Assembly: GCA_017534835.1 (NCBI GenBank) | Contig: JAFXVT010000005.1 | Location: forward strand, 1-32,914 | Length of the DNA stretch: 32,914 nucleotides | Direction: 5' to 3' | Origin: Ruminococcus sp. | GTDB taxonomy: Bacteria > Bacillota > Clostridia > Oscillospirales > Ruminococcaceae | In this document: one piece after another, positions 14,259 to 32,914 of the stretch | Layout of the letters: each line of letters starts with the position of its first letter | How positions within the stretch are numbered: the first letter of the stretch is position 1 | The notes under the pieces: model-generated | Database searches by the model: none | Told to the model about the DNA's origin: nothing | The model's input: the letters and a program-made list of their open reading frames with translations, nothing else | Made by a program: the position numbers and the translations under genes

Positions 14259-14266
14259 GTATTATT

Positions 14267-14295
14267 TAGGGGACACCCGACGGTGTCCCCTATTT
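14267..14295 (+). terminator. Terminator of glgP
   Basis: A 10-bp stem, AGGGGACACC (14268-14277) with GGTGTCCCCT (14282-14291), is followed by a short ATTTC tract starting nine bases after the stop. Confidence 0.8.
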
Positions 14296-14351
14296 CAGCA
14301 TAACCAACAAATATAAACATTTTCCTGAATATCATCAAGGAGGAGAGGTCT

Positions 14352-16238
14352 GTGATACCTGTATACGATACCTGGGACCTTAGCTGCAAATCAATCTTCG
14401 GCGCCATAAAGCAGTTTGAGACCTGCCGCTTCGCCATAAGGCTGAGCAAGGAGATACGCCCCGATTTTCCGCCCGTTCTCGTGCTTTTCAGGACCGGCTT
14501 CAAGGAGCGCTTCATCCATATGCAGCCCAGCGGCGAAACGGATGGATGCATCATCTATTCCTGCGAATACGAGGCGAGATACAGCGATGTACACTACTAT
14601 TACTTCTCGTATACCTCCGGCGGCATAAGGCACTATATCAAGCGCATCAACTGCCATGAGGGCGCTGAGCAGGAGGGCGACCTCTTTCAGCTGACGGTCT
14701 ATGCAAAGGACTACCAGACCCCCGATTTCCTCAAGGGCGGCATTATGTATCAGATATTCCCTGACCGCTTCTGCAAAAGCGGAGCTCCCAAGAAGAACAT
14801 CCCCGAGGGACGTGTTCTCCGCGAGGACTGGGGCGGAACTCCGTGGTATAAGCCAGACGAGCACGGTCATGTATGGAACAACGACTACTTCGGCGGAGAT
14901 TTTGCCGGGATACAGTCAAAGCTCCCCTATCTTCACGAGCTCGGTGTCACCTGCATCTACCTCAACCCCATTTTTGAGGCTCACGAGAACCACCGCTACA
15001 ATACGGCTGACTATACAAAGGCAGACCCCCTCCTCGGAACGAATCAGGAATTCGCCGAGCTCTGCCGCGAAGCAAAAAAGCTCGGCATCTCGATAATCCT
15101 CGACGGCGTTTTCTCCCACACCGGCGCCGACAGCATCTACTTCAACAAGTACGGAAGATACCCCGAACCCGGCGCTTACCAGTCAAAGGGCAGCAAATAC
15201 TACGACTGGTACAGCTTCATCAACTACCCCGAGCAGTATGAGTCGTGGTGGGGCATCGACACGCTCCCCAACGTTGACGAGAACAACGAGGACTACACGC
15301 GCTTCATCTGCGGCGACGAGGGTGTCCTGCACTACTGGCTCAGCAAGGGCGCGGCAGGCTTCCGCCTCGACGTAGCAGACGAGCTCCCCGACCAGTTTCT
15401 CAACAACCTCCGCAGGTCGGTCAAGAAATTCGGCAAGGAGAAGATCATCATCGGCGAGGTATGGGAGGACGCCTCGAACAAGGAGAGCTACGGCGTAAAG
15501 CGCCGCTATCTCCTCGGCGACCAGCTCGATTCCGTGATGAACTATCCCTTCCGCGAGGCGATAATCAACTACGTCAAGGGCGGAGATCCGCGCGATTTCA
15601 TCTATTCGGTGATGACTATCCTCGAGCACTATCCCAAGCCGACTATAGATGTGCTGATGAACTTCGTATCGACACACGATATAGAGCGCGCGATAAACCG
15701 TCTCGGCGGCGAATACTGCGACGACAAGAGCAAGGACTGGATGGCAGAGCGCCGTCTCACCGACGAGCAGTACAGAAACGGCAAGGATCTGCTGAAAACT
15801 GCCTTTGCGCTGATGTACTTCCTGCCGGGAGTACCGTGTATCTATTACGGTGACGAAGCCGGTATGCAGGGCTACAAGGACCCGTTCAACCGCCGCTGCT
15901 TCCCGTGGGGAAGCGAGGATCACGAGCTCATCGAGTACGTCAAGGAGCTCGGACGTGTCAGGAAGTCGATACCGAACCTCAGATCGGGCAGGACCTATTT
16001 CGCCCTCAGCGGCGGACAGCTCCCCGATGAGCGCGTCATCGTCTTCACGCGGCAGGGACATTTCACCGATTACATCTTCTACATCAACCGCACAGCCGAT
16101 ACCGTCACGCTCAGCGGCGTTGACAAATTCTTCACGCTCTTCTCGGGAATAGAGGGATTCTACGGCGATTACAGCGACGGGACCATCGTTGTTCCGCCCT
16201 ACGGCTACAGTATAATCAAGGCAAAATACACCGGCTGA
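14352..16238 (+). CDS. Cytosolic GH13 alpha-glycosidase (neopullulanase/maltodextrinase type)
   Basis: A 628-residue protein without a signal peptide. About the first 125 residues form an N-terminal beta domain. The GH13 barrel starts at GGIMYQIFPDRFCKSG, with VTCIYLNPIFEAHENHRYNT and the catalytic trio: nucleophile Asp340 (GFRLDVAD), acid/base Glu369 (GEVWED) and Asp443 (FVSTHDIE). A C-terminal beta domain ends YGYSIIKAKYTG. This layout fits the GH13 group of neopullulanases, cyclomaltodextrinases and maltogenic amylases, which trim maltodextrins in the cytosol. Exact specificity cannot be read from the sequence. The start is GTG, seven bases after AAGGAGG (14338-14344); no nearby in-frame ATG has a better site. 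The neighbour glgP would phosphorolyse the linear products. Confidence 0.92.
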   Translation: MIPVYDTWDLSCKSIFGAIKQFETCRFAIRLSKEIRPDFPPVLVLFRTGFKERFIHMQPSGETDGCIIYSCEYEARYSDVHYYYFSYTSGGIRHYIKRINCHEGAEQEGDLFQLTVYAKDYQTPDFLKGGIMYQIFPDRFCKSGAPKKNIPEGRVLREDWGGTPWYKPDEHGHVWNNDYFGGDFAGIQSKLPYLHELGVTCIYLNPIFEAHENHRYNTADYTKADPLLGTNQEFAELCREAKKLGISIILDGVFSHTGADSIYFNKYGRYPEPGAYQSKGSKYYDWYSFINYPEQYESWWGIDTLPNVDENNEDYTRFICGDEGVLHYWLSKGAAGFRLDVADELPDQFLNNLRRSVKKFGKEKIIIGEVWEDASNKESYGVKRRYLLGDQLDSVMNYPFREAIINYVKGGDPRDFIYSVMTILEHYPKPTIDVLMNFVSTHDIERAINRLGGEYCDDKSKDWMAERRLTDEQYRNGKDLLKTAFALMYFLPGVPCIYYGDEAGMQGYKDPFNRRCFPWGSEDHELIEYVKELGRVRKSIPNLRSGRTYFALSGGQLPDERVIVFTRQGHFTDYIFYINRTADTVTLSGVDKFFTLFSGIEGFYGDYSDGTIVVPPYGYSIIKAKYTG

Positions 16239-16253
16239 AAAAAATCCGGCATT

Positions 16254-16302
16254 TTTAAAGTATCTTTAAGGTTATTTTAAGGTTCGCCAAATATACTATA
16301 AA
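16254..16302 (+). promoter_or_regulatory. Promoter with three 11-bp-spaced TTTAARG boxes (OmpR/PhoB-type)
   Basis: TTTAAAG (16254-16260), TTTAAGG (16265-16271) and TTTAAGG (16276-16282) start exactly 11 bases apart, one helical turn. Next come TATACT (16292-16297) and the overlapping TATAAA (16297-16302) as -10 candidates. The boxes cover the -35 position, as is usual for OmpR/PhoB-family activators binding tandem direct repeats. It begins only 16 bases after the GH13 stop and points into a gap holding no gene on this strand. Confidence 0.6.
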
Positions 16303-16303
16303 T

Positions 16304-16454
16304 GGATCGAGTGATCCCCCAATTCCCCTTCTATATTTTGTTTCTTTTTCCTGTAACTGTACCTTACGGCACAAAACCGGTAGACAGGACGCAAGGGTCT
16401 GTTGAGAGCGGCTCTTTGCTTCTTGTTTATCGGTGCCGAAGGGTGCAGTTTTTT
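16304..16454 (+). ncRNA. Candidate regulated small RNA in the convergent gap
   Basis: Downstream of the direct-repeat promoter lies a stretch with RNA-like structure and no plausible protein. A 5' hairpin GGATC/GATCC (16304-16317) is followed by a C-rich single-stranded stretch with CCCCC and CCCC runs. A long stem follows: 16357-16372 pairs with 16433-16448 at 15 of 16 positions, including two G-U wobbles. A T6 run (16449-16454) then follows. The wobbles pair only if the plus strand is the RNA, which fixes the strand. C-rich loops are the usual seed of Gram-positive sRNAs against ribosome sites. It could instead be the 3' UTR of the GH13 gene. Confidence 0.5.
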
Positions 16455-16463
16455 GTTTATATG

Positions 16464-16490
16464 AAAAAGCACTCTCCGAAGAGAGTGCCC
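16464..16490 (-). terminator. Terminator of the glycerophosphodiesterase gene
   Basis: On the minus strand the stem GCACTCTC/GAGAGTGC (16469-16488) with a TTCG-type loop is followed by T5. A second strong stem, GGGGACGCCCT/AGGGCGTCCCC (16518-16546), lies closer to the gene but has only three Ts after it. Confidence 0.85.
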
Positions 16491-16583
16491 AGAATGCCGA
16501 AAAAACCGGTTTTGAAAGGGGACGCCCTCTATCGCAGGGCGTCCCCGTAAATGAGCCGGACCCTTGACAGCCTGACTTTCGCA

Positions 16584-18407
16584 TCAGTAAGAGCCGAAAA
16601 TGGTTTTCAGCACTGTCAGTATCTTTTCGCCGGTAGTAGTTGAATAAACGACCTTTGAGGCGCGGTCGGGACGGTTTGTGATGATGTTGTCCACACCGAG
16701 CGCCATCATCTTCTGCATCTCGTCCTTGTTGTCAACGGTCCACACGAAAATCCGCTTGCCGTTCTGATGAGCGTTGTTCACGACAGTCGCATTCACGAGC
16801 AGGTGATTCATACTCAGTGCGTCGATGTTCTTCATCTGCATAAACGCAGTAGTTGTCGCAACATTCGCTATAAGTCCCGTTTTTATGTCCGGATCGAGCT
16901 GCTTGACCTGCTTCAGCGCCGCATACGAAAACGACGTGACATAGCAGGAATCCTCAAGGTCAGCCTCTTTTACCGCCTCGACCACCTTCTCTGCCGTGAG
17001 CTTTGTATTGCCGTGGTCCTTGATCTCGATATTGTAGAGCAGGTCGTCACCGACAACTTCAAACACCTCGGAGAGGAGCGGTATCTTCGCATCGGGATAG
17101 TCCTCCTCAGCGACATATTTGCTTACGATATTCAGCTCAAGCAGTTCATCATAGTTATAGTCGCACAGCTTTCCGGTAGCGCTCGTCACGCGGTCGAGCT
17201 TCTCATCGTGGAATACCACGAGCTGCTCGTCCTTTGTGAGCTGCACATCGAGCTCGAGGTAGTCCGCACCGCTGTCTATCGCAAGCTCGAACGCTTCAAG
17301 CGTATTTTCGGGCGCCTGACGCGAGCAGCCGCGGTGAGCAGTGACCTGCGTGCGCGTTATGACCCCGACATTGAGGTTTATATTACCCTTGTGGAGCGCG
17401 CTTATATACGAATAATTCAGCAGCAGGCTGCCAACTATCAGCGAAACATAGACGACGATGCGTGTCGTTTTTTTCAGCTGGTGGGTCTTGCGCTCGGGAA
17501 GAGTTATCGGCATATCCTCGGGAATATCCGAGAAGAATCTGCCTGTCAGCCAGCACATAACAGCCGGAGTTGAGATGAATGCGGATATTGCCGTGAATAT
17601 CTCTCCCTCGTATTTCAGCACCTTCAGTGACGAGATGAGCGCCTTGTCCGGACTCGATATGCCCTTGATGAAGAGGAGTATCACGAAGCTGAGCACGAAT
17701 GTTATCAGAGCGGCTGCGGCTACGATGACAAGGGACCACGCAACGAGCGAGAGAACGTATCTCATCTTGCTGCCGATGATGAGCTTCCGGCTCTCCTTCG
17801 TGGAATCGTACAGCTTCTTGTCAGTCAGCACAAGGAAGTGCAGGCTGTAGCTGCGGCTGACTATGAGAATGGCAAACAATACCTGTATCCCGATATAGAC
17901 TACAAGAGCGCCGCGCATATTGATATGCCGGAAAGCATCACGCAGTATCGGAAGTATCGGTGCGAGGAATATACCGGACGAAATGGTGTACTGCGCTATC
18001 GGCATATAGACCATAAACGTCAGGAAGCAGAGCAGTCCCCTTCCGCGGAAAGCCTTCCGAAAGGCAAAGATACCCGTCCTGAACATTCCGATGACCGAGA
18101 GCCGTTCACCCTTGTAATAGCAGGAATAGCAGGCGGCGAGTCCCGACAGCTCGATAAACGACGACACTGCCGCAAAGAACAGTATCAGCACAAGAGCTAC
18201 GATAGTGGCAGGATTTTTGAGATATATCCACACCTTTTCGTCCGAGAGGTAACGGACGTGCGAGACCTTCATCGTGAATTTGAGCAGAAGCGTGAGTATC
18301 GGCGCACCGACAGCGAGCAGCAGCAGCTTGAATAAGAGCTCAAACAGCAGCACATCGGGCAGCGCTCGCAGAAAGACTGCGACGGACTTAAAAAATCTTT
18401 TCTTCAT
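16584..18407 (-). CDS. Membrane glycerophosphodiester phosphodiesterase
   Basis: The 607-residue protein has an N-terminal membrane domain with about eight hydrophobic helices (residues 10-345, glycerophosphodiesterase membrane-domain type). A C-terminal GDPD catalytic domain follows: HRGCSRQAPENT with His358 and Glu367, ELDVQLTKD with Glu385 and Asp387, and FHDEKLDR with His400. The expected reaction is hydrolysis of glycerophosphodiesters, possibly from lipids or teichoic acid, at the membrane face. The reading frame extends upstream to 18542, but a perfect promoter (TTGACA/TATAAT) lies inside that extension. The start is therefore the ATG at 18405-18407, although its ribosome site is weak. 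It diverges from feoB. Confidence 0.92.
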   Translation of the reverse strand: MKKRFFKSVAVFLRALPDVLLFELLFKLLLLAVGAPILTLLLKFTMKVSHVRYLSDEKVWIYLKNPATIVALVLILFFAAVSSFIELSGLAACYSCYYKGERLSVIGMFRTGIFAFRKAFRGRGLLCFLTFMVYMPIAQYTISSGIFLAPILPILRDAFRHINMRGALVVYIGIQVLFAILIVSRSYSLHFLVLTDKKLYDSTKESRKLIIGSKMRYVLSLVAWSLVIVAAAALITFVLSFVILLFIKGISSPDKALISSLKVLKYEGEIFTAISAFISTPAVMCWLTGRFFSDIPEDMPITLPERKTHQLKKTTRIVVYVSLIVGSLLLNYSYISALHKGNINLNVGVITRTQVTAHRGCSRQAPENTLEAFELAIDSGADYLELDVQLTKDEQLVVFHDEKLDRVTSATGKLCDYNYDELLELNIVSKYVAEEDYPDAKIPLLSEVFEVVGDDLLYNIEIKDHGNTKLTAEKVVEAVKEADLEDSCYVTSFSYAALKQVKQLDPDIKTGLIANVATTTAFMQMKNIDALSMNHLLVNATVVNNAHQNGKRIFVWTVDNKDEMQKMMALGVDNIITNRPDRASKVVYSTTTGEKILTVLKTIFGSY

Positions 18408-20816: not shown

Positions 20817-21480
20817 TTATTCTCCCTGTCCAGCGAGCTTCTCCAGCGCGCGGAAATCTATCTTTCCGACGGCGGTCAGCGGCATGGCGTCGATGAATTC
20901 GTATTTGCTCGGGAGACTGTATTCCGGCAGCTCGGACTTACAGAGATCGCGGAGTTCTTTTTCTATGCGAGCGCCGTCCGAGCGGTATTTCTCTTTGAGC
21001 ACAACGTAAGCCGCGAGCTTCACCTCCGGCTCGTTGTCGGCGGAGCTTTTAACGACGCAGGCGACCTCGACCGCTTCGTGTGCTTCGAGCGTTTTCCACG
21101 CGGTCGGGGAATATCTTGCTGACCATGCCGTCCTTTTCGGTGAGGATGATGCGCTTGATTCTTCCGGTAATGTAAACCGCGCCTTTTTCGTTCATAAAGC
21201 CCAAATCGCTTGTATGAAACCACTCATTTCCATCCTTATGCCTTTTGATAACTTTGACAGTTGCTTCCGGGTTATTAAGATAAACAAGCATGCGATAAGG
21301 TGTAAGAATACATATTTCACCTATTTCATCATGTGAAAGTTCTTTTTCGGAATCGGGGTCAAATACAGAGATGGTATTTCTTGAAATCGGTATGCCAAGC
21401 GAACCGCTGAATTGACCGTAGTAGTTTAAACTTGCCACAGCACATACTTCAGTTGCACCATAACCGTTCATATGTGGATT
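20817..21480 (-). pseudogene. AMP-binding enzyme (acyl-CoA ligase/adenylation domain), truncated and frameshifted
   Basis: Only the C-terminal third of an adenylate-forming enzyme remains. The order of motifs is NGYGATEVCAV (A5), FHTSDLGF (A7), TGRIKRIILTEKDG (A8), and PLTAVGKIDFRALEK (A10) with its lysine. At the 5' side a TGA lies about five codons before the NGYGATE motif, and no AMP-binding core is found beyond it. One frameshift sits at the A-run 21092-21096: the peptide continues as TLEAHEAVEVACVV only in the next frame. Base composition differs between the halves (23 of 60 G+C at 21241-21300; 36 of 60 at 21001-21060). Substrate is unknown; it may derive from an NRPS-like or acyl-CoA ligase gene. 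Confidence 0.85.
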
Positions 21481-21640: not shown

Positions 21641-21666
21641 AATCCCGATACAATTGTATCGGGATT
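21641..21666 (-). terminator. Terminator of the sensor/regulator operon
   Basis: A perfect palindrome with arms AATCCCGATACAA/TTGTATCGGGATT, followed on the minus strand by TTTTG. Confidence 0.85.
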
Positions 21667-21672
21667 CGTCGT

Positions 21673-21756
21673 CCTATTCAGTTTGATGATATTCTTTCTT
21701 CGTTAAGAATCGTGGGCATTGAGGAGGGACCCTTTTTCAAAAGGGTCCCTCCTCAA
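21673..21756 (-). repeat. 3'-UTR repeat motif, copy 2 (downstream of the response regulator)
   Basis: Read on the minus strand: a perfect 18-bp hairpin (21719-21756, arms TTGAGGAGGGACCCTTTT and its complement, loop of two bases), then ATTCTTAACGAAGAAAG (21694-21710), then AAACTGAATAGG (21673-21684), then the terminator. It is the best-preserved copy and matches copy 1 in both hairpins and the spacing. Confidence 0.75.
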
Positions 21757-21814
21757 TAAGTCTACGTATTACTCCCATATGAGTATCACGGCTATTCCTC
21801 CAAGCGTTTTTATA

Positions 21815-22456
21815 TCAGCCGAAGCAGCTGCTGTCGTCGTTTATCACGATACCGCCCGCTCTCGCGCGTACTGCGAGCTGCAGCCGCGTCTGGAAGCCCG
21901 TCTTCTGGAGCAGGTTCGTGATGTGCATTTTTACCGTGCGCTCGGATATGCCGAGCTGCTCGGCTATTTCCGTGTTCGACGCGCCGCCGACAAGTCCGCG
22001 GAGGATGTCCTGCTCACGCTCCGAGAGCTCGGAGCTCTCCATATTCCCGAAGGGCACGGACGGCATATTATCGGGGAAAACGTGCTCGCCTGCCATAGTC
22101 CTGTCCATAACTTCAAGGAGGGGCTGCTGCTGTACCTCCTTGTGCCAGAAGCTGTCCACGCCGATCTCGCGGGCGCGGCGTATGTACGTGACCTCGAACA
22201 TCGACGTCACGAGCAGTATCCTTATGTCGGGACAGAGCCTTTTCAGCTCGCCCGAGGCTGTTATGCCGTCCATTCCACTGCCCATAACAACGTCCATCAG
22301 CACGATGTCCACCTGCTGACGGCCGCAGAGCTCGATTGCTTCCTCAGCGCTGCCGACCGAGCCTGTGAGCACGTACCTGTCGGAGTTGCCGACGGCGTCC
22401 TCGAATATCTTCCTTATCAGCTTGCAGTCGTCAACTATCAGAACGCGATATGCCAT
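21815..22456 (-). CDS. LuxR/NarL-type response regulator
   Basis: The 213-residue regulator has a receiver domain at 1-120 with acidic pair Asp9/Asp10, phospho-acceptor Asp55 (DIVLMDVVM), Thr84 and Lys106. A LuxR-type helix-turn-helix follows at about 140-205: LSEREQDILRGLVGGASNTEIAEQLGISERTVKMHI, split here as the LSEREQDIL and GISERTVKMHI parts. The gene overlaps the upstream histidine kinase gene by 26 bases and has its own AAGGAGATA site. It is therefore the natural phosphate acceptor of that kinase. Likely targets are its own operon and the divergent effector operon, whose promoter carries a palindrome at the activator position; this is inference from layout. Confidence 0.93.
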   Translation of the reverse strand: MAYRVLIVDDCKLIRKIFEDAVGNSDRYVLTGSVGSAEEAIELCGRQQVDIVLMDVVMGSGMDGITASGELKRLCPDIRILLVTSMFEVTYIRRAREIGVDSFWHKEVQQQPLLEVMDRTMAGEHVFPDNMPSVPFGNMESSELSEREQDILRGLVGGASNTEIAEQLGISERTVKMHITNLLQKTGFQTRLQLAVRARAGGIVINDDSSCFG

Positions 22457-23684
22457 TGTCCGTATCTCCTTTGCCGAGCGGCAGACGGAGTATCATCTCG
22501 AAGTGTCCGCCGCTTCTTATTTCCATAGTACCGCCGCGGCTCTCGACTATTCGCCGCAGGTTTGCAAGTCCGCCCTTTTCGCGGATGTTGTCCTTCTGAG
22601 CTCCGTCGTTCGTGAAGCGGAGCTCACATTCGTTTTTGCCCGTTCGCACGTCGATGAACGCCGTGCTTCCGCGGGCGTGACGGAGCACATTCGTGGCGTG
22701 CACCGTTATCGCTTCATTTATCAGCTCCGTGAGCTCGGGTGCGCTCGGGAGCCTGCTGCCGCTTATCTTCACGTTCACGCCGAGCTCCTCTGCGTGGCGG
22801 AGCGTGTCCGCATACTGAGCATAGGTCTGCTCGCTCTGCACGTTGCTGAGGAGCATAGTGTTGCGCTTCCACAGGCGCAGGAGCTCGTCCTGCCCGACGC
22901 TGCCATCGACGAGGAGCGCACGCTTCGTCAGCAGGAGCATTTTTCCGAAGCCGTCGTGTATGCTTATCTTTATCTGTAAGAGCTCGCGCTCCTTGATAGC
23001 CTCGCCGATACTGCGGTTGAGGTCGTGGAGTCGCCTGTTTATGCTGTCGGCGTGAGCCTGCTTCCCGCGGAGCTCCTGCGTGAGGGTGTATTCTGAGGTC
23101 ATATCCGAGGCGATGAGCTCGTAATACTTCCTGCCGTCAATGTCAGCCTCGTACCGTGTGAAGCTGTAGACCCTTCCGTCCGTCAGCTTTACAATATGAC
23201 CGCTTCTGCCGAGCTCCTCGGACAGCTCGTTTTTCTCGGTGACGGCGCTCCACAGGGCTCTGCCGTCGGAGAGATATACCCCGAGCACATCGCGGCATAT
23301 CTGCTCCATAAGGGTGTTCACGAGTATCGGCAGACCGTTTTCGTTGCAGAAGCATATGCCAGTCGGCAGTGAATCCACGCACTCCTTGACCGACATTGCC
23401 GTCAGACTCGAAGCCTTCCACTTCTCTATGCGCGAGAGCAGGAAAAGTCCGGCTATCATCAGTGCGAGAGCTATGCTCATCAGCAGAGCGGGGGATATGT
23501 CGAGTATATTGTCATTGAAAGCCTCGGAGCAGTTTGAGGAAAAGCAGAACATAAAGAGCGTAACCGCGAGCAGAGCAGCCGAGAGCGGCTTTTTCATCTT
23601 CAGCATCACCGACTCGGTGAATTCGTAGGCGAAGAGGAGAGTCAGCAGCAACAGCAGCAGGATAGCCGCACGTGTGATTATCAT
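22431..23684 (-). CDS. Sensor histidine kinase (NarX/HisKA_3 type)
   Basis: The 417-residue kinase has two or three N-terminal membrane helices (about 3-20, 35-50, 64-83). A PAS-like segment follows (about 95-195, beginning VDSLPTGICFCNENGLPILVN), then a coiled region. The dimerisation helix carries His242 in KISIHDGFGK. The ATP-binding domain has an N-box (INEAITVHATNVLRHA, Asn331) and a G-box (REKGGLANLRRIVESRGG). All catalytic landmarks are intact. The ATG overlaps the stop of the upstream 7TM gene by four bases (ATGA), with AAGGAGG before it. It presumably phosphorylates the LuxR-type regulator encoded next. The stimulus is unknown and may be relayed by the 7TM protein. Confidence 0.92.
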   Translation of the reverse strand: MIITRAAILLLLLLTLLFAYEFTESVMLKMKKPLSAALLAVTLFMFCFSSNCSEAFNDNILDISPALLMSIALALMIAGLFLLSRIEKWKASSLTAMSVKECVDSLPTGICFCNENGLPILVNTLMEQICRDVLGVYLSDGRALWSAVTEKNELSEELGRSGHIVKLTDGRVYSFTRYEADIDGRKYYELIASDMTSEYTLTQELRGKQAHADSINRRLHDLNRSIGEAIKERELLQIKISIHDGFGKMLLLTKRALLVDGSVGQDELLRLWKRNTMLLSNVQSEQTYAQYADTLRHAEELGVNVKISGSRLPSAPELTELINEAITVHATNVLRHARGSTAFIDVRTGKNECELRFTNDGAQKDNIREKGGLANLRRIVESRGGTMEIRSGGHFEMILRLPLGKGDTDNGISRSDS

Positions 23685-25225
23685 ACGTCAGCCCTCCTTA
23701 CCGTGACAGTCGTCTGACCGTCGTAGACCCTTATGCCGAGCTCCAGCCCGATCCGTTCGAGCTCGCCGCCGAAGCGCTCGAAGCCGAGCTTTTCGGTCGT
23801 GTCTGTCTCTATGCGGAGCAGCTCGTTCTCCGAGGGCACTACAGTCGCTGCGAGAGCGTGTATCCTGTACATCGACTGCTCGAGGACAGCCTCGAAGACG
23901 TCGTATGCGAGGATAACACTGTCAGACTGCCACAGTGCCCGCTTTCCGCTGTCGGCAAAGCATTCGATACCGAGCAGTGTGAGGTACTCTATCGACTCGC
24001 GGACGGAGTAGAGCAGCTCATCCGTGGTCATTTCGGAGTTTCCTCCCGCAATGAGCATAAGATTCGATACGCGCTTGATGTACGTGCCGAGGATAAGGCA
24101 GAATTTCGTGCGGAGCTCGGGCATATCGCTGTCGCCGAGCGACTCGTTTATCTCGCGGAGCTGCCGCTCAACGTGAGCTGTTATCGCGTCGTAGGTGTTG
24201 TTCTGCGTCTCGAGGCGTACTCTCTCCGCAGTTACGCGGTTCTCCTCCTCAAGGAGCTCGTTCTCGCCCTCGATACGCTCTGCGGCTTCGCCAATGGCGG
24301 CGTTCACGGCACGTATGGCGGACACGTCCTCGCGCCACTCGACAGAGCCGCCGCGGAGCGTGCCCGTGCGGGTAACTGATTCATCGCCCGCAAGCTCGGC
24401 AGAGCGGCAGCTGACCTCGCCGCTGTCTGACTTGATAACGGCATTGAGGTGAGACAGCGTGAACAGCTCGCGGTAGCCCGTATTCGAGGATATAAGACCT
24501 ATTGCGATACAGCTCTCCCACAGGCTGATGAAGATGAGGGCGTAGACCTCCTGTATCATATACAGCTTCAGACCGAAAACTGTCGGAGAGCCGCCGCATA
24601 TCAGGTAGATGACACACAGCGCGATACCTATCCCCGAGACTGCGAGCGGGATATATGCGTATTTTCTGCACAGAGACGAGCGGCAGCGGTGTATGAGCAT
24701 AGCGTATGAGGCGATGAATACGATCGCTATCCACGCGATTATGACGTAGAACAGCCAGTTGTACGCCGCCTCGACAGCCCTGCCCTCCACTCGGAAGATG
24801 AAAACAGCTTCGTGGAGGTCGTTCGTCAGAACAGCCGCTATCAGAAGTACGGCTATCGTGCGCAGGAAGGTGAAGAGCTTCGGTACAGGCGTGTCCTCGG
24901 GCTTGCCGACGCGGTAAGCCGCACTCAGCGACAGCATGGGCACGGCTATGAAGGGTATGTAGTATGCGCCCCAGAGATACCTCTGTGCGGTGAGGTCGGT
25001 GTAGAATATGTTGTGCTTACAGGTGCGTATGGCGAAGAGGCTCATCGCGAGGATAGAGGCAACCCGCAGATTCAGCCTGACAGGGCGGCTGAGTATGCGC
25101 TGCTCTATCGTCAGTGACCATATCATTATGAGGGCGGCATAGTAGAGGGAGACTGGTGTCGAGCCAAGCTCAAAATACTGCGATATCATATACATCGCTG
25201 CTCCGATGAGCACAGCACAGACCAT
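23681..25225 (-). CDS. 7TM sensor protein with degenerate kinase-like C-terminus
   Basis: The 514-residue protein has about seven N-terminal membrane helices (to residue ~250, 7TM-receptor/histidine-kinase-N-terminal type). A long coiled segment (about 310-350, rich in Glu) and a kinase-like region follow. The expected phospho-His is absent: the matching helix reads LRTKFCLILGTYIKRVSNLM. The N-box appears as YDVFEAVLEQSMYRIHAL and no Gly-rich box is seen. It is therefore likely a signalling partner, not a kinase. The ATG at 25225 has no ribosome site. A strong GGGAGG at 25271-25277 precedes a CTG (25261-25263) in another frame. That frame joins this gene if one copy of a 5-bp duplication (25210-25220) is removed. 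The N-terminus is uncertain. Confidence 0.8.
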   Translation of the reverse strand: MVCAVLIGAAMYMISQYFELGSTPVSLYYAALIMIWSLTIEQRILSRPVRLNLRVASILAMSLFAIRTCKHNIFYTDLTAQRYLWGAYYIPFIAVPMLSLSAAYRVGKPEDTPVPKLFTFLRTIAVLLIAAVLTNDLHEAVFIFRVEGRAVEAAYNWLFYVIIAWIAIVFIASYAMLIHRCRSSLCRKYAYIPLAVSGIGIALCVIYLICGGSPTVFGLKLYMIQEVYALIFISLWESCIAIGLISSNTGYRELFTLSHLNAVIKSDSGEVSCRSAELAGDESVTRTGTLRGGSVEWREDVSAIRAVNAAIGEAAERIEGENELLEEENRVTAERVRLETQNNTYDAITAHVERQLREINESLGDSDMPELRTKFCLILGTYIKRVSNLMLIAGGNSEMTTDELLYSVRESIEYLTLLGIECFADSGKRALWQSDSVILAYDVFEAVLEQSMYRIHALAATVVPSENELLRIETDTTEKLGFERFGGELERIGLELGIRVYDGQTTVTVRRADV

Positions 25226-25293
25226 AATACTATCTGTTTCTTCTTGAATTTGGTGAGCTCCAGCGCGAATGCCTCCCTTCTGCGTTTTATTTA

Positions 25294-25323
25294 ATCATAG
25301 CACTGATTTGAGGATACAGTCAA
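25294..25323 (-). promoter_or_regulatory. Promoter of the sensor/regulator operon
   Basis: TTGACT (25318-25323) and extended -10 TGCTATGAT (TATGAT 25294-25299) with an 18-base spacer on the minus strand. The transcript would start near 25287, ten bases before the GGGAGG ribosome site at 25271-25277. Confidence 0.78.
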
Positions 25324-25395
25324 GAAGAAAGCGGCTTTTTGTACATATCCGACAAAAACACGTGCAAAGGTTGAAGAATTGTCTCTCGCGCACCT

Positions 25396-25437
25396 GTACT
25401 TTAGTACGTACCGCCATTTTTATTATTGGTATATAAT
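25396..25437 (+). promoter_or_regulatory. Promoter and activator palindrome of the effector operon
   Basis: TATAAT at 25432-25437 has no -35 match (ACCGCC occupies that place). The inverted repeat GTACT-TT-AGTAC (25396-25407) is centred about 43 bases before the inferred start. A partly overlapping GTACGTAC follows it. This geometry is typical for LuxR-family response regulators activating next to RNA polymerase. The divergent operon encodes exactly such a regulator. Confidence 0.6.
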
Positions 25438-25490
25438 GAGTACATTGGTAAAGTATACCTTATATTGCGTATGTACAAGGAGGAAAAACT

Positions 25491-26054
25491 ATGGGACTAT
25501 TTGACAAGCTGAAGCAAGCCACTGAAAGCGTCGCAAGAGACGTTGTCCAAAATGCGGGCTGCAGGTCCGAGGACGTGCAGTTCACGAAGCTGCCCGATAC
25601 GCTCGAGGAGTTCAGGTCACTGCCGCAGGCAAGCCTCACCTCACCATTCGATACGGCAGCGCTGACGGTGCTCGCGCTGTGCTTCTACCCGCAGGATAAG
25701 GAGCTCTCGCTGAATATGCTCGCGTATCTGAAAGGACCGCAGCCGCTGTCGGAGCACGACAAGCAGTTCCTGCGCGACCGCTTTATGGACAAGGACTACG
25801 TTCCGCGCTCGTACTTCAAGGGCGCGTCTCCGCAGAACGACTACACTCCCGCAGAGCCGTACACTATCCGCGTAAGCGAGAACCCGTACAGCTACACCGA
25901 GGAGAACTACGCAAAGATGTTCATACAGTCGGGCGGAGCAGATTCTCCGCGCTACGTTCAGCTTCGCAAGGCTAAGGACGGCAAATGGTATCTCTGGGAG
26001 CAGTTCCTGCTCGCTGATATAAGACAGCCCGAAAGCGCAGACCCGTGGGCATAA
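25491..26054 (+). CDS. DUF6935-like small cytosolic protein
   Basis: This is a 187-residue protein without signal or membrane segments. A short amphipathic start (MGLFDKLKQATESVARDV) leads into a conserved block: LPDTLEEFRSLPQASLTSPF, FDTAALTVLALCFYPQDKE, YVPRSYFKGASPQNDYTP, YTIRVSENPYSY and WYLWEQFLLADIRQPESADPWA. From memory these match the DUF6935 family, common in ruminococci and other Clostridia and of unknown function; I could not check. It is the first gene of the four-gene effector operon, with an AAGGAGG site, eleven bases ahead of the next gene. Its codon use and GC content match the neighbours. Confidence 0.85.
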   Translation: MGLFDKLKQATESVARDVVQNAGCRSEDVQFTKLPDTLEEFRSLPQASLTSPFDTAALTVLALCFYPQDKELSLNMLAYLKGPQPLSEHDKQFLRDRFMDKDYVPRSYFKGASPQNDYTPAEPYTIRVSENPYSYTEENYAKMFIQSGGADSPRYVQLRKAKDGKWYLWEQFLLADIRQPESADPWA

Positions 26055-26065
26055 GGAGGTAAATT

Positions 26066-26437
26066 ATGAGTATTATCGGACTTTGGAAAATTACGGATAT
26101 GAACGCTATGGATATGAGCTTTAAGCAGACATGGCGTAAGATTGACGAGCTGCTCGCGGACGACGGCGTCCACCCGATGCAGAAGATAATGGCGCAGGCG
26201 GTGTACCTCTTCCGCGAGGACGGCAAGGCGCTGCAGCTCATGCCGAAGGAAGCTGTAGGCGGCGAGGGCGAGCCCTACGATGACAAGTACGTCATCGGTA
26301 TGCAGACCGACTGGAAGGAAGAGGGCGGAAAGCTCTTCATCGCAGCGGAGGAGAACGGCGAGCCTGACTGGCAGGAGCTTGTCCCCGAGGGTGACGGCTA
26401 CGTTATGTTCAATATGTTTAAAATTGCGAAAGCATAA
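26066..26437 (+). CDS. Lipocalin-like small protein A
   Basis: This is a 123-residue soluble protein. It begins MSIIGLWKI, carrying the Gly-x-Trp signature often seen at the first strand of lipocalin-like barrels. Later strands read AVYLFREDGKALQLMP, TDWKEEGGKLFIAAE and WQELVPEGDGYVMFNM. No signal peptide is present, so it should stay in the cytosol. It is a clear paralogue of the next gene (shared IIGxW, FKxxWR, FxExGKALxLxP, WKEExGKL). The family assignment is inferred from this pattern only; ligand and role are unknown. The ribosome site is AAGGAGG, and it lies eleven bases after the DUF6935-like gene. Confidence 0.8.
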   Translation: MSIIGLWKITDMNAMDMSFKQTWRKIDELLADDGVHPMQKIMAQAVYLFREDGKALQLMPKEAVGGEGEPYDDKYVIGMQTDWKEEGGKLFIAAEENGEPDWQELVPEGDGYVMFNMFKIAKA

Positions 26438-26452
26438 GATATGGAGGTATGT

Positions 26453-26872
26453 ATGGAAATTATCGGAAAATGGAACATTGCAGAAGCTAAGGTAATGAAC
26501 AAGGACTTCAAAATGGAGTGGCGCACGGCTGCCGATATCATGGCGGACGACAGCCTCGACGACTACGTTAAGCAGTCGATAGGCTACAGCTACTGCTTCA
26601 CCGAGGAAGGCAAGGCTCTGACGCTCTTCCCGATACCTGCGGACGCGCCTAAGGAGAAGATAGACGCGGCGCTTGCTTCGGGCGAGATGAAGCTCTACGA
26701 CGACTCCACGATGATACTTGAGGAGAAGGCGTGGAAGGAAGAGGACGGCAAGCTTCTCTATGACACGCAGGCAAAGGCAGAGGTGCTCGGCGAGAAGCTG
26801 TCTTCGTGGGTGGAGATAAAGCCGACTGCCGACGGGATAGAGCTTATGGCTTACCGTCTTGTGAAGGAATAA
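26453..26872 (+). CDS. Lipocalin-like small protein B
   Basis: This is a 139-residue soluble paralogue of the preceding protein. It starts MEIIGKWNI with FKMEWRTAADIMADD, YCFTEEGKALTLFPIP, AWKEEDGKLLYD and WVEIKPTADGIELMAYRLVKE. An ATG twelve bases further up (26441) overlaps the GGAGG ribosome site, so I chose the ATG at 26453, five bases after it. No signal peptide is seen. The side-by-side duplication with divergence suggests two different ligands or a heterodimer; this is inference. It is twelve bases ahead of the large surface protein gene in the same operon. Confidence 0.8.
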   Translation: MEIIGKWNIAEAKVMNKDFKMEWRTAADIMADDSLDDYVKQSIGYSYCFTEEGKALTLFPIPADAPKEKIDAALASGEMKLYDDSTMILEEKAWKEEDGKLLYDTQAKAEVLGEKLSSWVEIKPTADGIELMAYRLVKE

Positions 26873-26884
26873 GGAGGAAGAGAT

Positions 26885-29800
26885 ATGAATTTTAAGAAAA
26901 TGGCTGCGGCGGTGCTTGCTGCCGCGACCGTGCTCACCTACAATATGGGGTATATGCCGACGGGTGTGAACTATCAGGGGAGCAGTATCACTGCAGAGGC
27001 ATTTGATACTGACGGAAAGCTGTATTACAGTAAGGACGGCGTAAAAACATTCGGTGAAAATAAACTCGGCTCAATCAGTAACCCCGACACAAACACTAAT
27101 AATTTCTTCGGCTACCTTAACAGGTACTACACCTACGAAAAGGATTCTGCAAACAGTTCAGCGACAGTATACGCTATTAAGATAAAAAAAGGCAGGAAAA
27201 ACAATCCTGACTTTAAAACTGCTCAGTTCCCTGCACCGTATACACAGGACGGCGTTACATACAAGATAACATCAATAGCTAACGGAGCTTTCGAGAATTA
27301 TACAAACATTACCAACGTCCTTCTTCCGTGCTCTATTAAGGATATCGGTGCTTATGCTTTCAGCGGCTGTACGAGCCTTCAAACTGTATCTTTTACAAAC
27401 AGAGCCACATCACTTGAAAGTGATACTTCTGTTGTTCAGACGTCCGACCTCAGAAGTATCAATAAAGAAGCATTTAAAGGCTGCTCAAAGCTTAGGCTTT
27501 TTGATATGAATCCTGTTGCAGCCTTCGAGAACCTCACCATCATCGACGAGGGTGCATTCAAGGATACAGCTCTCAAGGTAGGCTATATCCCGAAGAATCT
27601 GTCGATGATAAAAGCCACTGCTGATGGCACCGGGGAAAACTACAACCCCTATGAGGATATCCCCACGCTGAACAAATACATCGTTGCGCCTAATCAGACA
27701 AAGGGCTACTACGCGATAGACGGCGTGCTCTGCAAAACAACTGACAGCGGCAAGGCTCTCGCGGCGTACCCTGCGGCAAAGACAGGCGACAGCTATACTA
27801 TCCCCGCGGAGATAGATGCTATCGGTAATTATGCGTTCAAAAAGGTGAAAAACGAAAACCTCAGCGTGACTATCCCCTCGACCGTCACCACGGTGGGCAG
27901 CTGCGCATTCTATGAGGGCACGCTGAAAAACATCACAATAAACGGCGCACCGACTATCTACGATGAGTTTATGTGTGAGACCAACATCGGCACGCTGACT
28001 ATCAACGGCGAGGCAAGGTGGAACAAGGAATCTGGGTCTGCATACTGGTTCCACCACTGCAATATCAACAAGGTAGTTTTCACCAAGAACTTCACATGGC
28101 GTCTGCCCGATGAGCCTATCTCTATGAACTTCGAGCTCTTCGGCGTATCCACGAGAAGTGCTGACGGCTATTACCTCTATCATGATGAATACAACTACGC
28201 TTACATGAAGGCAATTTACTACAACTCCGTCGATACCGTAGAGATACAGGGCAAGTGGAACCTCAGAACAGCCAACGGCGAATACTACTCATTCCGCGAG
28301 CATATGTTCCAGGGCGTAAAGCACGTCAAGTTCACTGACCCCGACTGCGAGATAACGAAGTATATGTTCTATATGTGCCCCGAGCTCGAAACTGTTGAGC
28401 TCCCCGAGAACCTCAAGGAGATACCGACTTGCGCTTTCGCCTACACATACAGCCTCCAGTCGCTCGACATTCCCAATACTGTAACAACTATCGGTGCCTG
28501 CGCTTTCGAGAACACAGGTCTGAAATCGCTCGTTATCCCCGACAGCGTGACATCGCTCGGCAATTCGAGCGAGGGCTGGTATACGTTCAGAACGAGCAAC
28601 GAAAAGTGGCTGCGCGACGACGAGTTCACACCGCAGCTCGTTGACCTCTATATCCCGTCCACGCTGACATACTACCTGCTCAAGGATATGGAATACGGCA
28701 CATTCAGAACATGGGAAGGCATTAACGTGACCGAGGGAACATACCCCGTAACCCTCCACGGCGTTGCGGGCTCGGGCGCGGAGGAGTACGCGAGCAAGCA
28801 CGCCAATGTCACATTCGCGGGTATGGATGACCTCTCCGCATACAGCGTTACCAAGATAGACGGCGATGCTCCCGCAACATACGAGCACGACGGCATTACA
28901 TACTATGTTTCTGACAGTGTGAAGCCTAACTTCACTTTAACCAACGGCACAAAGACCTACACCAACGCCTCGGCAGAGCTGAACTGCAGCTTCTCGGGCA
29001 GCAGCGAGGACATCAGGTACTATGATGTTACCTTTGCCGACGAGACACAGGGCTACGGCAAAATGAGGATATTCTTCGCTTATCCGAAGTCGCAGTTTAA
29101 ATGCTTAGAGGACAATGATGTAACACACTCATACGACAAGGTAAACGGCAAGACCCTCGCGCCGACGTGTACAGAGGGCGGCTATGACTACTATGAGTGC
29201 ATTTACTGCGGCGAAAAGAAATCAATAGGCAATGAGACAGCCGCCCTCGGTCATGACTGGGGCGAATGGGACGAGAACAACGAGCACACCTGCTCACGCT
29301 GCGGCGCAAAGGAGCACAAGCCCACAGTAAGCTTTGACGAAACAACAGGCACGCTGACACTTCTCAAGGGCAATGTTATCAAGTCAGACGTTCAGGCTTA
29401 TGCAGATAATGAAGCTGTAAAGTCAGTAGTAGCTGAAGAGGGCGCTGTTCTTCCTGAGGACTGCGAAGCTATGTTTAAAAATTTCAAAGCAACTTCTATT
29501 GACCTTACAAATGCAAATACGAGCAATGTAACTGGTATGAGTTGTATGTTCATGCAGTGCTATGAACTTACTGACTTGAATTTATGCGGAATTGATACAA
29601 GCGAAGTTACAGACATGAGTTATATGTTCTATGGTTGTAAAGTTCTCGTATCACTTGACCTTAGCAGCTTTGATACGAGCAAGGTTACTAATACGAGAAC
29701 GATGTTTCAGGCTTGTATAGAAATTGAAACTATATATGTCTCTGATAAGTGGAATATGGCTAATGTAACTGATTCAACATATATGTTTGCGCAGTGTCAA

Positions 29801-32800
29801 AAACTTGTCGGAGGAAACGGAACAAAACAGAGAGACGTATCCATAGATGTTACATACGCTCGTCCTGATTTAGAGGGACAGAAGGGCTTATTGACAATCA
29901 ATATCTTGGCTGTCCCCGCAAAGGAACCCACCTGCGGCGCGGCAGGCAACAGCGCTTACTACAAGAACAACATAGACGGCAAATACTATTCCGACGCTGA
30001 ATGCACCACCGAGATAACCCTCGAATCCACGGTTATCCCCGCAACAGGCGAGCATACTTGGGGCGAACCCGAGGGCGGCTTCCGCACCTGCACTGTTTGC
30101 GGTACAAAGGAGGCACTCGCAGATTTCGACAAGCCTCAGAATATCACAGCCACCGATATTACAAAGACGAGCTTAAAGCTCTCTTGGGACGCTTTCCCCG
30201 AGGGCTACAAGCTGGATAGAATTACAGGCGGAAAGAATGTCCCCGAACTGGGAGACCTCGATTTCAACGCGGTAATGAAGGATTATGTTACACTTCTCAG
30301 CTCGGGAAAGACCGATGACGAGGCATATCCTGTCATTGAAGCTAAATACGGCGAGACCGCAACTGCCGCATTGAAAGCAGTCAACGAGCCTGAAAATACG
30401 CTCCCGTTTGAAAACTATGAACTTGATGAAACCGACCTGACATGGTGCAAGGTCAATAACCTTGAAGAAGGAACTCTCTATACATTCCTGATAGTTCCAA
30501 ACATCAATGACGGCGGCGTTCCGCTCCCCGAGCACTGGGGTATCATTCAGGTGAAGACCCTTGCCGATAAGGTGCTCACCCACGTTGAGGCTAAGGCGGC
30601 TACCTGCACAGAGGCAGGCAACATCGAATACTGGAAGGACGAAGACGGCAAGTGCTACTCCGACGCGGAGGGCAAGCTCCCGATAGACCCCGCGCTCGTA
30701 GTTATCCCGCCCACCGACGACCACCAGTACGGCGAGCCCGTCTACGAATGGGCGGCTGACCTCGGCGAGGTAACGGCGAAGGTGGTATGCGCACTCAGCA
30801 GCGAGCACAAGCTATCCGAGACAGTCAAGACCGTCAAGGAGGAGCTCCCCGAGCTCGGCAAGATAGTATACCACGCTGTCTTCACCGATGCGCACTTCAC
30901 CGAGCAGACGAAGGAAGTCCCGATGGAGACGACTACGGGTACAACCACTGCTACAACTACGGCTACTACAACGGCTACAGAGACTGAGAATACTACGACC
31001 ACATCTTCTGCGACTGCGACAACAACTACAGTTTCTGAGGGTACAACGACTTCTGCGACTGCTACGGAGTCCGCGACCACCGCGAGCGAGGGCGCGACAA
31101 CGAGTGGAACAGCTACAGAAACGACAACCACGGCAAGCGACACAGTAACCACAACATCAGGTACTGAGACGACGGCTTCAACGACAAGCGGTACAGGTAA
31201 CGAGACAACTGCTTCGACAACAAGCGGTACAGGTACTGAGACTACAGCTTCAACAACGAGCGGAACAGGTACTGAGACAACTGCTTCAACGACAAGCGGC
31301 ACAGGTACCGAGACGACAGCTTCGACTACAAGCGGCACAGGTACCGAGACTACAGCTTCAACAACGAGCGGTACAGGTACCGAGACTACAGCTTCAACAA
31401 CGAGCGGAACAGGTACTGAGACAACGGCTTCAACGACAAGCGGTACAGGTACTGAGACAACGGCTTCAACGACAAGCGGTACAGGTACCGAGACGACAGC
31501 TACCACTACAAGCGACACAGGTACTGAGACGACGGCTTCGACAACAAGCGGCACAGGTACTGAGACCACAGCTTCGACAACAAGCGGTACAGGTACCGAG
31601 ACAACTGCTTCAACGACAAGCGGCACAGGTACCGAGACGACAGCTTCGACTACAAGCGGCACAGGTACCGAGACGACAGCTTCAACAACGAGCGGTACAG
31701 GTACCGAGACTACAGCTTCAACAACGAGCGGAACAGGTACTGAGACAACGGCTTCGACAACAAGCGGCACAGGTACTGAGACCACAGCTTCAACAACGAG
31801 CGGAACAGGTACTGAGACAACTGCTTCAACGACAAGCGGCACAGGTACCGAGACTACAGCTTCAACAACGAGCGGAACAGGTACTGAGACAACGGCTTCA
31901 ACGACAAGCGGCACAGGTACCGAGACTACAGCTTCAACGACAAGCGGCACAGGTACCGAGACGACAGCTTCGACTACAAGCGGTACAGGTACCGAGACGA
32001 CAGCTACCACTACAAGCGGCACAGGTACCGAGACTACAGCTTCGACTACAAGCGGTACAGGTACTGAGACTACAGCTACCACTACAAGCGGCACAGGTAC
32101 CGAGACTACAGCTTCGACTACAAGCGGCACAGGTACCGAGACGACGGCTTCGACAACAAGCGGCACAGGTACTGAGACCACAGCTTCAACAACAAGCGGT
32201 ACAGGTACTGAGACGACGGCTTCGACAACAAGCGGTACAGGTACTGAGACAACAGCTTCAACAACGAGCGGTACAGGTACCGAGACAACAGCTTCAACAA
32301 CGAGCGGTACAGGTACCGAGACGACAGCTACCACTACAAGCGGCACAGGTACTGAGACAACTGCTTCAACGACAAGCGGTACAGGTACCGAGACGACAGC
32401 TACCACTACAAGCGGTACAGGTACCGAGACAACTGCCTCGACTACAAGCGGTACAGGTACCGAGACGACGGCTTCGACAACAAGCGGTACAGGTACTGAG
32501 ACTACAGCTACCACTACAAGCGGCACAGGTACTGAGACTACAGCTACCACTACAAGCGGTACAGGCACAGGAACGACAGCTTCCACTTCACAGACCACAG
32601 CTGCTTCCTCTACAGGCGAGCAGGGCTCGACTACTACCGAAACCAAGCCCGTTGAGCCTGACAAGGACCTCGGCGATATGAACGGCGACGGCAAGGTCGA
32701 TGCTAAGGACGCTTCGGCTATCCTCGTTGCATACGCAAAGGCTTCCACAGGTGAGGACGACGGACTTACAGACGCTCAGCGCGCAGCAGGCGATGTAAAC

Positions 32801-32914
32801 GGCGACGGCAAGGTCGATGCTAAGGACGCTTCCGCGGTACTTGCGTACTACGCACTTGTTTCGACGGCGACGGGCGATATCCCGACACTGCTGGAATTCG
32901 CACGGCCGAAGGTA
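26885..32914 (+). CDS. Secreted BspA-type LRR/DUF285/FN3/dockerin surface protein (3' end beyond window)
   Basis: At least 2,010 codons are open to the window edge. A signal peptide (MNFKKMAAAVLAAATVLTY, cleavage perhaps after SITAEA) leads to BspA-like leucine-rich repeats at about 110-640 (ITSIANGAFENYTNITNVLLP; IGAYAFSGCTSLQTVSF). Cys-pair segments with CIYCG (772), CSRCG (803) and CTVCG (1069) follow, with DUF285 repeats at about 863-978 (MSYMFYGC, SFDTSKVT) among them. An FN3-like domain spans about 1080-1210. A Thr-rich linker runs from ~1347, with 39 exact-length 12-residue repeats at 1427-1894. The two-repeat type I dockerin has DMNGDGKVDAKDAS at 1931 and DVNGDGKVDAKDAS at 1970. The dockerin implies docking to a cohesin scaffold; no catalytic domain is seen, so adhesion or sensing is likely. 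The ribosome site is AAGGAGGAAGAG. Confidence 0.93.
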   Translation, partial: MNFKKMAAAVLAAATVLTYNMGYMPTGVNYQGSSITAEAFDTDGKLYYSKDGVKTFGENKLGSISNPDTNTNNFFGYLNRYYTYEKDSANSSATVYAIKIKKGRKNNPDFKTAQFPAPYTQDGVTYKITSIANGAFENYTNITNVLLPCSIKDIGAYAFSGCTSLQTVSFTNRATSLESDTSVVQTSDLRSINKEAFKGCSKLRLFDMNPVAAFENLTIIDEGAFKDTALKVGYIPKNLSMIKATADGTGENYNPYEDIPTLNKYIVAPNQTKGYYAIDGVLCKTTDSGKALAAYPAAKTGDSYTIPAEIDAIGNYAFKKVKNENLSVTIPSTVTTVGSCAFYEGTLKNITINGAPTIYDEFMCETNIGTLTINGEARWNKESGSAYWFHHCNINKVVFTKNFTWRLPDEPISMNFELFGVSTRSADGYYLYHDEYNYAYMKAIYYNSVDTVEIQGKWNLRTANGEYYSFREHMFQGVKHVKFTDPDCEITKYMFYMCPELETVELPENLKEIPTCAFAYTYSLQSLDIPNTVTTIGACAFENTGLKSLVIPDSVTSLGNSSEGWYTFRTSNEKWLRDDEFTPQLVDLYIPSTLTYYLLKDMEYGTFRTWEGINVTEGTYPVTLHGVAGSGAEEYASKHANVTFAGMDDLSAYSVTKIDGDAPATYEHDGITYYVSDSVKPNFTLTNGTKTYTNASAELNCSFSGSSEDIRYYDVTFADETQGYGKMRIFFAYPKSQFKCLEDNDVTHSYDKVNGKTLAPTCTEGGYDYYECIYCGEKKSIGNETAALGHDWGEWDENNEHTCSRCGAKEHKPTVSFDETTGTLTLLKGNVIKSDVQAYADNEAVKSVVAEEGAVLPEDCEAMFKNFKATSIDLTNANTSNVTGMSCMFMQCYELTDLNLCGIDTSEVTDMSYMFYGCKVLVSLDLSSFDTSKVTNTRTMFQACIEIETIYVSDKWNMANVTDSTYMFAQCQKLVGGNGTKQRDVSIDVTYARPDLEGQKGLLTINILAVPAKEPTCGAAGNSAYYKNNIDGKYYSDAECTTEITLESTVIPATGEHTWGEPEGGFRTCTVCGTKEALADFDKPQNITATDITKTSLKLSWDAFPEGYKLDRITGGKNVPELGDLDFNAVMKDYVTLLSSGKTDDEAYPVIEAKYGETATAALKAVNEPENTLPFENYELDETDLTWCKVNNLEEGTLYTFLIVPNINDGGVPLPEHWGIIQVKTLADKVLTHVEAKAATCTEAGNIEYWKDEDGKCYSDAEGKLPIDPALVVIPPTDDHQYGEPVYEWAADLGEVTAKVVCALSSEHKLSETVKTVKEELPELGKIVYHAVFTDAHFTEQTKEVPMETTTGTTTATTTATTTATETENTTTTSSATATTTTVSEGTTTSATATESATTASEGATTSGTATETTTTASDTVTTTSGTETTASTTSGTGNETTASTTSGTGTETTASTTSGTGTETTASTTSGTGTETTASTTSGTGTETTASTTSGTGTETTASTTSGTGTETTASTTSGTGTETTASTTSGTGTETTATTTSDTGTETTASTTSGTGTETTASTTSGTGTETTASTTSGTGTETTASTTSGTGTETTASTTSGTGTETTASTTSGTGTETTASTTSGTGTETTASTTSGTGTETTASTTSGTGTETTASTTSGTGTETTASTTSGTGTETTASTTSGTGTETTASTTSGTGTETTATTTSGTGTETTASTTSGTGTETTATTTSGTGTETTASTTSGTGTETTASTTSGTGTETTASTTSGTGTETTASTTSGTGTETTASTTSGTGTETTASTTSGTGTETTATTTSGTGTETTASTTSGTGTETTATTTSGTGTETTASTTSGTGTETTASTTSGTGTETTATTTSGTGTETTATTTSGTGTGTTASTSQTTAASSTGEQGSTTTETKPVEPDKDLGDMNGDGKVDAKDASAILVAYAKASTGEDDGLTDAQRAAGDVNGDGKVDAKDASAVLAYYALVSTATGDIPTLLEFARPKV
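31163..32566 (+). repeat. 39 tandem 36-bp repeats encoding a Thr/Ser/Gly linker
   Basis: The unit, ACTGAGACNACNGCTTCNAC followed by NACNAGCGGNACNGGT, encodes TETTASTTSGTG. The start-to-start distance from the first unit (31163) to the last (32531) is 1,368 bases, exactly 38 units, so no indel breaks the frame. Variation is nearly all at third codon positions, with some units reading TETTATTTSGTG or SDTG. It is a flexible, probably O-glycosylated linker separating the LRR/FN3 part from the dockerin. Confidence 0.95.

Follow-up and report, generated by a model that had tools for sequence, protein, structure and literature searches.

Organization of the locus

The window, the whole 32,914-nucleotide stretch of DNA that was analysed, was the entire contig C55 of a 2.56-Mb Ruminococcus-type genome (G000). 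The closest named relative at the locus was the sheep-rumen MAG Ruminococcus sp. RGIG6826 (L084), which had a 96% identical 7TM protein. Three genes, referred to here as the trio, were located on the minus strand and encoded a NarL/LuxR-type response regulator (21815-22456), a DesK-type histidine kinase (22431-23684) and a 7TM protein (23681-25225). The regulator and kinase genes overlapped by 26 bases, and the kinase and 7TM genes by 4 bases. The plus strand carried the DUF6935 gene (25491-26054), small gene A (26066-26437, product of 123 aa), small gene B (26453-26872, product of 139 aa) and a giant LRR/dockerin gene (26885-32914), separated by 11, 15 and 12 bases, respectively. The giant gene ran into the window edge and its end was missing, because the window spanned the whole contig. 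The region between the trio and the facing operon (25226-25490) was 265 bases long. Gene order and spacing were in agreement with the initial annotation, which had described three overlapping minus-strand genes and four plus-strand genes with gaps of 11-15 bases sharing a 265-base control region.

For the trio, a consensus scan alone pointed to a candidate sigma-70 promoter on the minus strand at 25294-25323 (TTGACT-18-TATGAT). For the facing operon, a -10-like box TATAAT was present on the plus strand at 25432-25437, and the consensus scan recorded no recognisable -35 element in the window. The -35 position was occupied by a proposed 19-base operator, CTGTACTTTAGTACGTACC (25394-25412, plus strand), which was obtained from conservation scans and placed 19 bases ahead of the -10-like box. 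The regulator-binding stretch suggested earlier, 25396-25407 (GTACTTTAGTAC), turned out to be the core of this candidate site.

Proteins of the trio

Both domains of the regulator exceeded the Pfam cut-offs (Response_reg 67.5 bits, GerE 65.1 bits), which assigned the protein to the NarL/LuxR type. The region of its recognition helix was read from the alignment as ERTVKMHITN. The kinase alone scored 15.9 bits against HATPase_c, under the cut-off of 26.4. A kinase-domain profile built from 19 relatives (A8) matched DesK structures with an E value of 5.5e-10 and also matched the structures of VraS and DevS. Residues H243, N332 and GG371-372 were invariant in an alignment of 12 sequences, and the profile similarity together with the conserved H, N and G boxes placed the enzyme among the DesK-type kinases. 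Three hydrophobic segments were detected by hydropathy at its N-terminus.

The 7TM protein of the window scored 21.5 bits against HisKA_7TM (PF16927) and did not reach the cut-off of 28.6; 14 of its 22 relatives matched this family at E ≤0.01, the best with 9.6e-10. The protein carried a 260-residue C-terminal part resembling the middle of fused Lachnospiraceae proteins (six proteins, E 3e-4 to 1e-11). In Lachnospiraceae, a single protein of 656-693 residues combined a 7TM part, the following domain and a kinase; its first parts matched the 7TM protein of the window and its last part matched the kinase. These fusions suggest that the separate 7TM protein and kinase work together. By eye, the C-terminal domain of the 7TM protein looked kinase-like with the H and N boxes lost; however, neither an hhalign comparison with the kinase nor a PDB profile search returned a kinase match, and the pseudokinase reading was kept as an idea only.

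Products of the facing operon

The product of the giant gene scored 173.5 bits against LRR_5 (cut-off 27.7) and was thereby assigned to the BspA-type LRR proteins. It also exceeded the Pfam cut-off for DUF285 and ended in a C-terminal type I dockerin (Dockerin_1, 36.5 bits, cut-off 22.9), so the very large dockerin-bearing protein expected in the facing operon was indeed found. A 36-bp repeat of 39.6 copies (31158-32583) encoded a Thr-rich linker of this protein. An antisense ORF of 668 aa (30742-32748) overlapped the repeat and was probably a by-product. The start of the giant resembled a signal peptide by eye, and a hydropathy scan showed no segment there; from such starts, read by eye, we infer that the giants are secreted. 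The genome of the window contained at least 85 dockerin matches and 14 cohesin matches. Seven of the cohesins were located on contig C45, six of those seven in 1888-aa open frames. The type I dockerin, together with cohesins in the same genome, classified the giant as a cellulosomal dockerin protein, and docking would be possible because both kinds of module were matched in the genome.

The DUF6935 protein (187 aa) was assigned to PF22043 with 211.8 bits (cut-off 27). It had no hydrophobic segment by hydropathy, and a PDB profile search yielded a single weak match (E 0.27). The family was not named in any paper of the literature searched. Small proteins A and B were paralogues (36%). They had been called lipocalin-like binding proteins in the initial annotation, a description that found no support: no lipocalin family was matched in Pfam or NCBIfam, and a PDB profile search gave weak unrelated matches only.

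Conservation of the gene neighborhood

Loci in which the 7TM protein and the kinase were separate (split type) were collected from a 120-genome sample of the genus, which yielded 15, and by further search, which added six, giving 21 distinct loci; this number excludes two marginal entries (G098, G084) and four belonging to a distant subfamily. The neighbor count was based on 20 of them, as the contig ended at L097. An LRR neighbor was defined by a BLAST E value of ≤1e-5 to the giant of the window, and most such neighbors also matched LRR_5 or DUF285 by Pfam. An LRR protein was encoded within four genes of the trio at 15 of the 20 loci, or at 13 of 18 when the window and the near-identical G077 were set aside; in these counts relatives are not independent, many genomes are MAGs and gene calls are mechanical. 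Control triplets taken from twenty 20-kb stretches of G117 and G047 had an adjacent LRR gene in 4 of 259 cases and one within four genes in 6 of 139. Judged from gene order, the association between trio and operon is not a chance one, and the LRR giant is the usual partner of the trio.

The 15 loci (window, G077, C20, G037, L091, L095, G117, G047, G045, G073, G096, G089, L088, L090 and G036) displayed at least three layouts. A second, diverged set, arranged on one strand in the order trio-DUF6935-A-B-giant, was present on another contig of this genome, C20 (L032). Its first six members were 42, 44, 58, 83, 60 and 69% identical to those of the window set, and the giant was 33% identical locally. 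A close copy of the C20 set, also on a single strand, was present in R. flavefaciens YRD2003 (L038), and L091 had the order trio-DUF6935-DUF285 giant. In R. flavefaciens ND2009, one strand carried the trio followed by LRR giants, DUF6935 at a distance of about 12 kb and another giant.

Five loci had no LRR neighbor. G039 and G023 encoded proteins of roughly 2270 aa near the trio, truncated at the edge of the retrieved sequence, and the one scanned had no Pfam match; at G011, G097 and L096 no such giant was seen near the trio. In G014 (L071, about 8190-8320), two pieces of a regulator gene lay between an LRR gene and a DUF6935-A-B-giant operon, which reached the contig end and kept the operator. 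This relic may reflect a recent loss or a fault of the MAG assembly.

A search for conserved neighborhoods of the gene set had been suggested. The linkage of the trio to the LRR giant was kept, in rearranged form, whereas DUF6935 was not detected in 9 of the 14 genus genomes bearing the trio. At 13 of 19 DUF6935 loci the retrieved flanks, in part short, contained no trio and no relic of one, and DUF6935 was rejected as a core partner of the trio. On the best reading of these sequences, DUF6935 and small genes A and B would be optional members of the system.

Several loci showed further arrangements. At L069 and L040 (G047, ND2009), four same-direction LRR-type giants followed the trio, and in ND2009 the same operator preceded two of the four giants and DUF6935. 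At L039 (G117, R. flavefaciens YL228), the trio was followed at 12819-18215 by a dockerin protein and a cohesin-DUF285 repeat fusion. A distant DUF6935 (43%) in L076 (8531-9592, G082) was immediately preceded by a relative of small protein B (33%); the pairing of DUF6935 with small protein B may therefore predate the link to the trio. A distant 7TM-kinase-regulator subfamily of about 25% identity was present in the same genus (L046-L049); no LRR neighbor was found at these loci, and one 3-mismatch operator match only was recorded, away from the trio.

Candidate operators and regulator helices

The 19-base site occurred once in the window even when 3 mismatches were allowed, and in 0 of 100 shuffles. 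When CTGTACTTTAGTACGTACC was searched in seven genomes with up to 2 mismatches, four matches were obtained (the window one, G077 two, G014 one, the other four genomes none), each located before DUF6935. One of them, in G077:C22, had no trio nearby, and the one in G014 was accompanied by the regulator relic only. The alignment of the four promoters had an overall mean identity of 74%, and 17 of the 19 operator positions were invariant. The exact 17-mer was absent from 395 genomes of the family and 390 of the class (780 distinct) except that of the window, a sample which contained few trio carriers as far as known and did not include G077 or G014.

The 17-mer pattern was fixed before the Lachnospiraceae loci were searched. 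The exact 17-base core was present next to the gene for the 7TM-kinase fusion at L103, L105 and L107, and these were the sole exact matches in nine fused-type genomes. When as many as 3 mismatches were tolerated, the number of matching fused-type loci rose to 8 of 10 (L099, L101, L104, L106 and L108 only in this way), although control DNA (400 kb) yielded 4 as well. No site was found at L100 or L102, the latter despite its GTAC-type helix. A looser pattern gave ten matches in the nine genomes, six of them at the locus including the three exact ones and four imperfect and elsewhere, against six for the reversed control.

The GTAC site accompanied regulators with the helix ERTVK(M/L)HI(T/A)N, with the exception of L102. 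Regulators with TVKR(H/N)I accompanied TGASCYNNTYGGSTCA, exactly in seven of ten cases and imperfectly in three (L035, L036, L090), and those with ERSVKQHI and ERAVKKHI accompanied CCCTTTYGTAC. These three site classes ruled out a single operator for all trios. In the regulator tree, from which L043 was left out as it had no intact regulator helix, the TVKR group formed one cluster (98/95), and the GTAC rows fell outside it.

The two later classes had been derived in part from the same loci, and the independent matches were only those of G089 (two), the third site of ND2009, which preceded another LRR giant, and G073:C31, which lay on another contig than the trio and preceded a DUF285-dockerin gene. 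One later class had ten exact matches, all at trio loci or in G073, within a total of 28 matches with up to one mismatch (4 in the control), most of the one-mismatch ones being elsewhere. The other had five exact matches, all at trio loci; 11 of its 16 matches were imperfect and elsewhere (control 1), a number of them in genomes lacking a regulator of this class. G073:C26 (L037, 2283) held a further exact copy of the operator, situated between convergent genes, and its target was not obvious. One-mismatch matches in G000 (C6, C11, C41 and C63), in or beside genes showing no evident connection, look like chance. Among 18 sites, 11 had their best -10-like box, searched within 75 bases, beginning 19-21 bases downstream; in four the distance was 37 bases and in three it was another. 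Taken across the loci, the type of site appears to follow largely the recognition helix of the regulator.

Proposed regulation and its alternatives

We proposed that the trio works as a dedicated two-component system in which the 7TM protein would sense a signal and, with the DesK-type kinase, control the phosphorylation of the NarL/LuxR-type regulator. The regulator would bind CTGTACTTTAGTACGTACC, substituting for the missing -35 element, and thereby activate the promoter of the DUF6935-A-B-giant operon, the end product being a giant LRR surface protein able to dock to the cohesin scaffold of the cell. From the sequences we infer the binding, activation rather than repression, the joint action of 7TM protein and kinase, secretion and docking. 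The trio is probably a dedicated activator of giant LRR surface proteins, some of them bearing dockerins. Control of the facing operon by the regulator, as first presumed from the head-to-head layout, was strengthened by a linkage kept through rearrangement, a site at a set distance from the promoter and the agreement between helix and site.

The geometry of site and promoter is what suggests activation: the operator took the -35 position of a promoter lacking that element, and the trio had an ordinary promoter candidate of its own. The same overlap would also suit a repressor that covers the -35 region until a signal relieves it, but we consider this unlikely, since a promoter without a recognisable -35 is what an activated promoter would look like, and at the four loci with the 37-base distance the site was clear of the -35 region.

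It is more doubtful still that the trio acts mainly on its own expression or on other genes, the giant operon being a neighbor by descent only. Divergent loci do place the site between both units, and a quarter of the 20 loci had no LRR neighbor; against this, in one-strand loci the site separated the regulator gene from the target operon downstream, and sites away from any trio preceded DUF6935 (G077:C22) and the DUF285-dockerin gene (G073:C31). Slightly less credit again was given to a global regulator of surface proteins as the owner of the conserved site. The site kept in G014 beside a fragmented regulator gene would fit such an owner, but that gene may have been lost recently or broken by assembly, the exact 17-mer was confined to the window's genome among the 780 sampled, and the site class tracked the recognition helix of the trio regulator.

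The dedicated activator may belong to something wider. A signalling family of Oscillospiraceae and Lachnospiraceae, dedicated to giant LRR proteins including those that carry dockerins in the rumen cellulosome, would pair a degenerate-kinase 7TM receptor with an active kinase, and its operators would have changed together with the helix. Receptor and kinase are split in one family and fused in the other. We regard the case for this broader reading as evenly balanced.

Comparison with described systems

The nearest described behavior met in the literature, as far as the consulted part of the source goes, is that of the group A Streptococcus protein RocA, which combines a 7TM region, through which it interacts with CsrS, with a cytosolic domain (PMC6635533). 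In both cases a 7TM membrane protein acts with a separate sensor kinase, an action proposed here from sequence. The likeness is one of described behavior: here, unlike in RocA-CsrRS, the 7TM gene overlaps the kinase gene (in Lachnospiraceae the two are fused), the kinase is of the DesK type, the regulator of the NarL type and the proposed targets are LRR proteins. The 7TM histidine kinases BtsS/LytS, in the sections consulted (PMC10653868), and HisKA_7TM (PF16927) similarly have a seven-helix sensor region upstream of kinase signalling, but here two proteins are involved, the HisKA_7TM score is below the cut-off and the regulator belongs to another family. The kinase-domain profile and the regulator domains resemble DesK/VraS-type kinases with NarL-type regulators, whereas the sensor partner, the proposed operator and the targets differ.

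The giants resemble the LRR-dockerin proteins of the R. flavefaciens cellulosome, described for strain FD-1, in which LRR modules are joined to dockerins (PMC2930009, PMC4081043). In the searched portions of these texts the word 'kinase' was absent from both and 'sensor' from PMC2930009, and none of the terms two-component, histidine kinase, response regulator and sensor appeared in the FD-1 draft genome paper. The regulation of CAZymes and cohesin components in R. flavefaciens and R. albus was described, in the text available, as 'yet to be understood' (PMC4081043); the analysis now names a regulator for this gap together with its proposed operator and targets, and the LRR proteins gain a conserved candidate control system. 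The seven-gene signalling and uptake cluster of Ruminiclostridium cellulolyticum, as described in the part consulted (PMC5663094), likewise joins signalling and fibre-use genes in a cellulosome bacterium, the likeness again being drawn by description. The system was not recognised in the searched portions of the literature on Ruminococcus cellulosome signalling, LRR-dockerin proteins, BspA and 7TM kinases. Its parts are of known kinds; the system as a whole, its operator and the standing LRR link appear undescribed in the literature searched.

Flanking sequences

An Rfam scan found nothing. Beside the trio, the fragment at 21049-21471 presumably corresponds to the end of an AMP-forming ligase. 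A 40-base inverted repeat was located at 21718-21757 (GAGGAGGGACCC...GGGTCCCTCCTC); about twenty similar copies were present genome-wide, and six of these lay no more than about 150 bases from the start of a contig.
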